Part shown: positions 26,627 to 28,790 of the stretch, piece by piece
Layout of the letters: every line of letters starts with the position of its first letter
Position numbering within the stretch: the stretch's first letter is position 1
Source: Sporichthya polymorpha DSM 43042
GTDB lineage: Bacteria > Actinomycetota > Actinomycetes > Sporichthyales > Sporichthyaceae
Length of the DNA stretch: 64,000 nucleotides
Direction of reading: 5' to 3'
Assembly: GCF_000384115.1 (NCBI RefSeq)
Contig: NZ_KB913029.1
Location: 3,075,057 to 3,139,056, forward strand
Made by a program: the position numbers and the translations under genes
The notes under the pieces: model-generated
Database searches by the model: none
What the model saw: only the letters and a program-made list of their open reading frames with translations
What the model was told of the DNA's origin: nothing

Positions 26627-26987
26627 CCCGGCCGCGCCGAGACCGGGCATCAGGTCACCTGCGCCTCGCTCTCAGCCTCTTGGCAGACACAAGATCAATT
26701 AGGGCATGTCTCCCAACTCCTCTGCGGCGCGCTCGGGGCCCCGGACGCCCTCTGGCCGCGTTGTCGTCGTCGCCCGCTACTCCGTAGCGGGCTCCTCCTC
26801 CGCCTAGCCAGAGAACGTCCGAGCCGCCCATCGCATCCTCCAGGAGTTGAGAGACACGCCCTAAGCGCGATATTGCGCTCTGTGTTCTTTGAGTCGCGCT
26901 CAGTAGTATGCGCCCGGCGTCGCACCACCACGGACGCGGATCACTGCCGAACCGCCGCGCCCGTGGGGCGCGGGATTGGAGCTACGG
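26627..26987. other. 361-bp intergenic region holding a MITE-like element
   Basis: This region is less GC-rich than its surroundings. It contains the palindromic element at 26700-26863. On its right a TAGTAT hexamer (26904-26909) could be a -10 for the secreted-protein gene, although no good -35 is placed before it. The ribosome binding site GGAG (26978-26981) precedes that gene. No other gene is seen. Confidence 0.6.
26700..26863. mobile_element. MITE-like element with 22-bp terminal inverted repeats
   Basis: The ends 26700-26721 and 26842-26863 are inverted copies with two mismatches (outer sequence TAGGGC). The element is 164 bp and nearly a complete palindrome. Further matching blocks are CGGACG..CTCTGG at the same distance from each end, and a central perfect hairpin GCCCGCTAC-TCC-GTAGCGGGC. 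It is flanked by TTA on the left and TAA on the right, consistent with a TA or TTAA-type target as used by IS5-group transposases. No transposase frame fits inside, so it would be non-autonomous. Confidence 0.7.
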
Positions 26988-28790
26988 ATGCGGCGCATCA
27001 CCATGCGCACGGTTGGAATCGCGGCCCTCGCGGGCGCGCTGATCGCCGGGGGACTGGCGGCGACCCCTGCGGCGAGTGAGCCGGTGGGCCCCGCGCAGCC
27101 GCAGGGATCGGCTCGGGTGGCCGCGCCGGGCGACCCCTTCGCCTGCCCGAGCTCGCGCTTCTTCCTCAGCCAGGGCTCGCCGACGCAGATGTCCACCCTG
27201 ACGCCGGGTTCGGACGAACCGACGGAGATCGGCGCCGCCACCCGCACGTACAACGCCATCGGCTACAACGAGGCCGACGGTTTCATCTACGCCATCCTGA
27301 GCAACGGGCATCTGGGCCGGATCGACGGCGAGGGCAACGTCGAAGACCTCGGGCAGCTGACCGACGGCAACAACGCGACTTTCAATGCGGGGGCCGTGCA
27401 CTCCGGTGGCCGGTACTACTTCGTCACCACGAATGCGAACAGTGCCCTGTATCGCATCGATCTGGACGATCCGAACTACGCCGACGGCATCCACACCCTC
27501 CGGATCCCGCTCTTCGATGAGCCCGGCGGGAACCCTCGCGGGGCGCTGTCGGCGGACGTGACGTTCCTCGGGGACGACCTGTGGGGGGAGCGGAGCAACA
27601 GCGACCAGTTCGCCCGTATCACGTTGGACGACTCGCCCACGGGCTCACCCACGTTCGGGGTCGTGGACCTCTTCAACGCCGCTCCGGTCGGCGTTGTGGA
27701 TTCGGAGTCCGGTGCCGCCTGGACCTACGCGAACGGCAATCTCGGCTTCTCCGACAACGACACCGGTGACATCTACCAGGTCCGTGTCGACAACCCGACG
27801 GCGGCCACGCCCACGTTCACCCTCGTCGCGGTCAGCGAGGGGCCCGATTCGTCCGTCAACGACGGCACCGCCTGCCGCGGTGGGGACGTGGATCTGGCGA
27901 TCACCAAGACGGCCGCACCATCCCCGGTGACTCCGGGCGGCGTCATCACCTACACCCTGACCGTCGAGAACCTCAGCGGAACCAACGACAGCTCCGGCTT
28001 CGTCGTCAGCGACACCGTGCCGGCTGACCTGACCAACCTCTCCACCTCCAGCCCGGGATGCGACTTCGCCGGTCAGACCCTCACGTGCACCGGCGGTGCG
28101 CTGCCGGCCGGTGACAGCGTCGCCTTCGAATACACCGCCGACGCTCCCGGCGCGACGGGTTCAGTGGTCAATGCCGCGACGGTGACCGGGAACGAGCGCG
28201 ACCCGGATGCGGACAACAACACCTCGACGATCACGGTGCCGGTGGCCACCCCCGCCCCGACTCCCACTCCCACCCCGACGCCGACGCCGAGCCCGGCCCC
28301 TGGCCCGGGGCAGCCGTCCGCGCGGCCGGATCTGGTGGTGCGCAAGACCGCGCCGGCGCAGGCGCAGGCCGACCGGAGTGTCACCTGGCGGATCGTGGTC
28401 CGGAACCGTGGCAATGCGGCAAGTGTCGGAGCGGTCCTGACGGACACCCTGCCGAAGCAGGTCCGGTCCTCACGGGTCGCCACCCCGAAGGGTGTGCGCT
28501 GCACGGTCGCCAAGCGGAACGTCCGGTGCGAGCTCGGGACGATCGCGCCGGGGAAGAAGCTGGTCGTCAAGATCACCGGACGGCTCTCGCCGAACGCGAA
28601 GGGCCGGATGACCAACACCGCGCGGGTCACCGACGCCCAGGACAGCAACGTCCGCAACAACAGCTCGGCGGCGACGACGCGGGTGCGTCCGGTCGGCGCG
28701 GGGACCCCGTGCCGAGTCGGCGTCGCGAGCACCGCCGTCAGCCCCGTCGGGGCCCCGCAGGTGCGGACAGCCGGCCGCGCCGGCTGCTGA
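26988..28790 (+). CDS. Secreted DUF11-repeat protein with Pro-Thr linker
   Basis: ATG 26988 with GGAG six bases upstream encodes 600 residues. A signal peptide ends near AATPAASEP. Residues of about 45-310 form a propeller-like domain (GYNEADGFIYAI, GGRYYFVTTN, WTYANGNLGF) of the kind often found before DUF11 domains. Two DUF11 repeats follow: one starting DVDLAITKTAAPSPVTPGG, the second DLVVRKTAPAQAQ. They are joined by a Pro-Thr repeat linker (28255-28300). DUF11 proteins are surface-exposed beta-sandwich proteins. No sortase signal or membrane anchor is present. Its base composition is visibly lower in GC, and it adjoins the MITE, suggesting acquisition. Confidence 0.85.
   Translation: MRRITMRTVGIAALAGALIAGGLAATPAASEPVGPAQPQGSARVAAPGDPFACPSSRFFLSQGSPTQMSTLTPGSDEPTEIGAATRTYNAIGYNEADGFIYAILSNGHLGRIDGEGNVEDLGQLTDGNNATFNAGAVHSGGRYYFVTTNANSALYRIDLDDPNYADGIHTLRIPLFDEPGGNPRGALSADVTFLGDDLWGERSNSDQFARITLDDSPTGSPTFGVVDLFNAAPVGVVDSESGAAWTYANGNLGFSDNDTGDIYQVRVDNPTAATPTFTLVAVSEGPDSSVNDGTACRGGDVDLAITKTAAPSPVTPGGVITYTLTVENLSGTNDSSGFVVSDTVPADLTNLSTSSPGCDFAGQTLTCTGGALPAGDSVAFEYTADAPGATGSVVNAATVTGNERDPDADNNTSTITVPVATPAPTPTPTPTPTPSPAPGPGQPSARPDLVVRKTAPAQAQADRSVTWRIVVRNRGNAASVGAVLTDTLPKQVRSSRVATPKGVRCTVAKRNVRCELGTIAPGKKLVVKITGRLSPNAKGRMTNTARVTDAQDSNVRNNSSAATTRVRPVGAGTPCRVGVASTAVSPVGAPQVRTAGRAGC

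Follow-up and report, generated by a model that had tools for sequence, protein, structure and literature searches.

A gene-less 160-bp palindrome in Sporichthya polymorpha: probable member of an actinomycete-wide, IS5-moved MITE lineage with a persistent core and changing ends

What is a 160-bp imperfect palindrome without a gene, lying between two TA dinucleotides of an actinomycete genome: a piece of mobile DNA, or a structure fixed in its place? The element in question occupies positions 26702-26861 of the window (the whole stretch of 64,000 nucleotides that was analysed) in Sporichthya polymorpha, the genome of which is a single 5.5-Mb contig. It has TA on each side, its site being TTAA, and was originally predicted to be a MITE. 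That reading has held, and the family turns out to be wider than had been supposed: a core found across the class, ends that change and a placement at stop codons had all been missed.

26700..26701, no strand: left TA of the target duplication (TTAA site; in a relative, comparison with an empty site shows that TA is duplicated)
26702..26861, plus strand: the MITE, 160 bp, its orientation set by the conserved core
26702..26720, plus strand: left terminal inverted repeat, GGGCATGTCTCCCAACTCC
26758..26772, plus strand: left conserved core block, GCGTTGTCGTCGTCG, kept in relatives
26773..26791, plus strand: central hairpin, CCCGCTA-CTCCG-TAGCGGG, its stem varying on both sides across relatives
26792..26808, plus strand: right conserved core block, CTCCTCCTCCGCCTAGC (consensus ...CCTTGC), kept in relatives
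26843..26861, minus strand: right terminal inverted repeat, read on the minus strand as GGGCGTGTCTCTCAACTCC
26862..26863, no strand: right TA of the target duplication, read from the window sequence

The boundaries of the element read T TA/GGGCATGTCTCCCAACTCC ... GGAGTTGAGAGACACGCCC/TA A. The terminal inverted repeats have 2 mismatches in 19 bases, and a search of the window for the end pattern returns just two sites, the element's own ends (0.00 expected). The palindrome is real: in addition to its TA flanks, the element folds at -47.7 kcal/mol, as against -31.4 +/- 3.3 for shuffled sequences (z = -4.98; 0 of 200 shuffles as good), around a central hairpin with a 7-bp stem (CCCGCTA/TAGCGGG) and a 5-base loop. 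"Near-perfect", the term first applied to it, is too strong: on either side of the hairpin the arms (GTCGTCGTCG and CTCCTCCTCCGCC) pair poorly, and relatives keep this asymmetry. The 160 bp have no coding capacity for a gene.

Is this copy one of several, as a MITE should be? Its own genome also holds a second full copy (3930117-3930280; 96% identity, the window copy being 100%) and a fragment of the core, and relatives hold many more. The fragment (G000:C1:2327758-2327855, L046) is a diverged, core-only remnant directly past a TAG stop. BLAST finds matches in 16 of 60 genomes, the own genome counted. With 16 copies as the basis of a covariance model, a search of the class gives matches in 42 of 148 genomes and 21 of 81 genera (per-genome counts near 19 probably stand for at least 19, the number of candidates scored in each genome), and in a phylum-wide draw of genomes the matches were confined to the same class, with none seen outside it. 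Named hosts of the exact core include Nocardia, Rhodococcus, Aldersonia, Microbispora, Sphaerimonospora, Propionibacteriaceae, Actinopolymorpha, Pseudonocardia and Sporichthya. Most of the 113 copies that were extracted are 157-163 bp long. Several copies in one genome (G043, L144-L148) have an identical model score, which suggests a recent burst. A search for a vehicle of transfer yielded only one weak Streptomyces match among plasmids and nothing among phages or viral contigs, so that none was found.

What of the target site? TA stands on both sides of 61 of the 113 extracted copies (the majority of full copies, as the predicted TA-type duplication implies) and on one side of another 45. For a Microbispora copy, the empty site of a relative (G158), CACTCGC-TA-ACCGCGG, can be set against the filled site, CACTCGC-TA/element/TA-GCCGCGG: the comparison shows a clean insertion at one TA, with duplication of that TA. 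A second site (L013/L210) is likewise unoccupied, with its TA altered; at a third (L054) the element is again missing and there is a small deletion.

An element without a gene would have to be moved by an enzyme made elsewhere, and a full transposase between the same ends had been predicted. It exists in the own genome (G000:C1:1634124-1635069, located by the end-like sequences at 1634124 and 1635069) as a 946-bp IS with the ends TAGGGCACGTCTCCTAAC / TAGGGCGTGTCTCCCAAC and two ORFs in different frames: both match NF033580 (IS5 family transposase), DUF4096 and DDE_Tnp_1 are hit as well, and the matches exceed the cut-off. The partner IS accordingly carries an IS5-type transposase; its site is CTAG, its two ORFs lie in different frames, and the IS427-type subgroup (defined by frameshifted ORFs and a YTAR target) is one candidate for its place in the family. 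With the TA included, 16 to 18 of 19 positions are identical between its ends and those of the MITE (18 of 19 bases for the left end of the MITE against the right end of the IS). This IS and the second genomic copy support the reading of the window element as a gene-less MITE. Another genome (G060) has three identical 1013-bp copies of a second two-ORF IS of similar look (its ORFs read by eye), with the ends TAGGGCGTGTCTGGCGGATCTTG / TAGGGCGTGTCTAGTGGATCTTG, which resemble the MITE ends TAGGGGGTGTCTGATGGATCTTCGG of the same genus. Beyond these two, none of the genomes checked yielded a transposase whose ends match precisely: other IS5-type ISs there share just the general GGGCNTGTYT end type, and a 1651-bp end pair in Nocardia encloses no transposase recognisable by eye.

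If the ends belong to resident ISs, to what does the interior belong? Its core is laid out as GCGTTGTCGTCGTCG / covarying hairpin / CTCCTCCTCCGCCTTGC and is nearly invariant, with about 1.5-1.6 bits of information per column as against 0.4-0.8 bits for the ends. In the hairpin, it is the pairing that is kept: covariation is 0.754, compared with 0.251 after shuffling (reached in 0 of 500 shuffles), 90% of cells are paired, and slid versions fall far below. The ends vary from copy to copy and match within each copy: in 66 copies that all differ in their first 12 bases, left and right ends agree at 0.93 inside one copy and at 0.40 when taken from different copies (truly distinct types are fewer than 66, as some of these versions are nearly alike or owe their difference to a called end that has moved by one base). 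Two copies may share 0.86-0.92 identity over their inner 120 bp and yet clearly differ at their ends, a difference that unaligned figures exaggerate. Two other readings of core sequence were tried and rejected: 1) a Val/Ser-rich coding sequence, because the spacing of the core blocks varies by one base; and 2) a G-quadruplex formed by GGCGGAGGAGGAG, because this sequence is not strictly kept and several copies read GGCGAAGG.

Most of these copies were collected with the core or the whole element as query. Might the likeness of the core then be an artefact of core-based searching, and the copies be internal-deletion MITEs that arose independently from different ISs? A search with the ends only serves as the control. 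Tallied against the core-search loci in ten genomes (G000, G001, G011, G019, G054, G112, G123, G133, G060 and one Nocardia), 45 of 46 end-only pairs of 150-190 bp contain the core, the exception being a 184-bp pair in G060; the ISs examined do not contain it (their best matches are 11-12 of 15 and 11-13 of 17 bases). Independent origin from ISs is thus a very improbable account of the family.

Elements without the core also exist. There are short versions of 44-125 bp, including some in G054 and Nocardia, and others of 359-374 bp with IS-type ends. Three derivatives of 62-125 bp (L048, at G054:C24:26025-26101, L250 and L252) have kept their ends but no longer the core, which a deletion across the palindrome seems to have removed. 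Three elements of 184-374 bp in G060 (L244, L245 and L246) have IS5-like ends and long internal palindromes without the core, and two of them share internal sequence; these three are a second MITE family. Because core-less elements with IS-like ends exist, and because the core is absent from the ISs examined, neither the transposase nor transposition is likely to need it. One might still imagine that the core is recognised by some other mobility enzyme, such as a single-strand transposase of RAYT-like type that acts on the hairpin, the variable ends being secondary, and a hairpin and flanking motifs that are conserved while the ends vary would suit such an enzyme. It is nonetheless highly unlikely, since insertion is precise at the ends and duplicates TA, the ends are matched from left to right, and IS5-type partners with such ends are at hand.

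Where do these elements land? CTAG is the site of 42 of the 59 copies scored with TA on both sides, and since the usual element has G as its first base and C as its last, a TAG is rebuilt at either end when read inward. At 39 of 89 left ends this TAG falls in the frame of a coding stretch (shifted frames: 5 and 3); for right ends the count is 31 of 71 (shifted frames: 4 and 2). A stop is restored on at least one side by 30 of 39 CTAG copies, compared with 22 of 103 background CTAG sites (P = 2e-9), and on both sides by 8 of 39, compared with 0 of 103 (P = 2e-5); flanks are convergent in 24 of 61 cases versus 4 of 33. (A technical note: in these counts a stretch was taken as coding from its open frame and third-position GC rather than from annotation, and the statistics ignore the kinship of copies.) The enrichment may just reflect where CTAG insertions are tolerated. 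The window copy, about 75 bp beyond a TGA stop, is an exception to this placement.

A position at gene ends, a strong fold and a covarying hairpin are equally what one would look for in a structured non-coding RNA or a terminator that is fixed at its site and does not move, but such an object has very little claim on the evidence: Rfam models give 0 matches in the window; copies are dispersed and flanked by TA, and the empty site contradicts this account as a full explanation; both orientations are used about equally at stops, which argues against a strand-specific RNA role; and paired changes in the end repeats are to be expected from inverted repeats in DNA alone.

The surroundings of the window copy bear on the same question. 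The protein of the upstream gene is 95% identical in the closest relative (G002) and 79% identical in a genome of the same genus (G001), and in neither is the element adjacent: a single copy at one conserved site everywhere is not what is found. In G002 the intergenic DNA fails to align with the surroundings of the window copy and so offers no exact empty site for it. In G001 and G004 the small upstream gene is followed directly by an apparent DEAD-box helicase gene, and in G002 by a different protein. In the window the element is adjoined by 26976-28790, which encodes a secreted-looking protein of 604 aa with DUF6923 and two DUF11 stretches; since the upstream gene of G001 and G004 runs straight to the putative helicase gene, this gene and the element mark a variable spot.

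Very probably, then, the window element is a non-autonomous, IS5-moved MITE belonging to a lineage spread across the actinomycetes, with a persistent body and changing ends, and tolerated at stop codons. How might such a lineage work? 1) Both inverted ends would be recognised by an IS5-family transposase whose gene lies at another place in the genome; movement is deduced here from anatomy, copies, empty site and partner IS. 2) Insertion at a TA, usually within CTAG, would duplicate that TA. 3) One lineage would run through the actinomycetes, in which the 120-bp body persists, above all the core around its structure-conserved hairpin. 4) The ends, about 20 bp each, would change to match whichever IS5-type transposase is present. 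This is seen as a pattern, and exchange or gradual tracking might generate it: most likely, the lineage is long-lived and non-autonomous, and its ends either follow IS5-type transposases or are swapped among them. 5) An element that enters a TAG stop leaves a TAG on each side and would consequently cost little at gene ends, even between convergent genes; restoration is a matter of observation, and selection would be the cause of the placement. 6) The core would aid persistence rather than transposition, for example as a hairpin that ends transcription in both directions. Bidirectional termination, or some other persistence function, is our best guess for the core, and a tentative one. More doubtful is the composite proposal that a single old lineage switches ends among IS5-type transposases, and that a hairpin core with a function of its own (such as bidirectional termination at stops) is what makes its insertions tolerable.

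A MITE commonly derives from one IS by deletion, and bacterial MITEs are usually regarded as short-lived. The element resembles IS5-derived MITEs with a TA or YTAR target in having the ends and target of a resident IS5-family IS, and differs from them in a body that resembles no IS examined and outlives the changes of its ends. Closest in plan are the Correia repeat enclosed elements (CREE/nemis) of Neisseria, 153-157 bp long and described by PMC2649163 in Neisseria only: these, too, lack genes and have no transposase of their own, insert at TA, come in shorter length classes as well, and carry inverted ends around a conserved core. Their end sequences are different, however, and their hosts belong to another phylum; here the core is class-wide and the ends vary widely. 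MITEAba12, as summarised in PMC6382973, is one highly conserved element across the Moraxellaceae, with ISAba12 as its proposed parent. It shares the spread over a bacterial group (in its case one family) and the connection to an IS partner or parent; the element described here, in contrast to MITEAba12 as summarised there, is one body with many end types. REP/BIME sequences of the GTAG and CGTC families are 20-40 bp long with a tetranucleotide tag (PMC3733652). They are likewise palindromic, extragenic and multi-copy, but the unit here is 160 bp with TA-flanked inverted ends and does not belong to them. The main text of that REP survey does not mention Actinobacteria or Streptomyces, and a term search of the review PMC10969869 brought up no named actinobacterial MITE. 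Reviews and literature searches yielded no actinobacterial family of this kind; an earlier description elsewhere is possible.

If this account is true, a body has been kept across many actinomycete families while its ends changed, and a gene-less parasite can outlive its transposases. The family is a natural set for probing what the conserved core does, and CTAG insertion with restoration of the stop suggests a route by which such elements spread in dense, GC-rich genomes.
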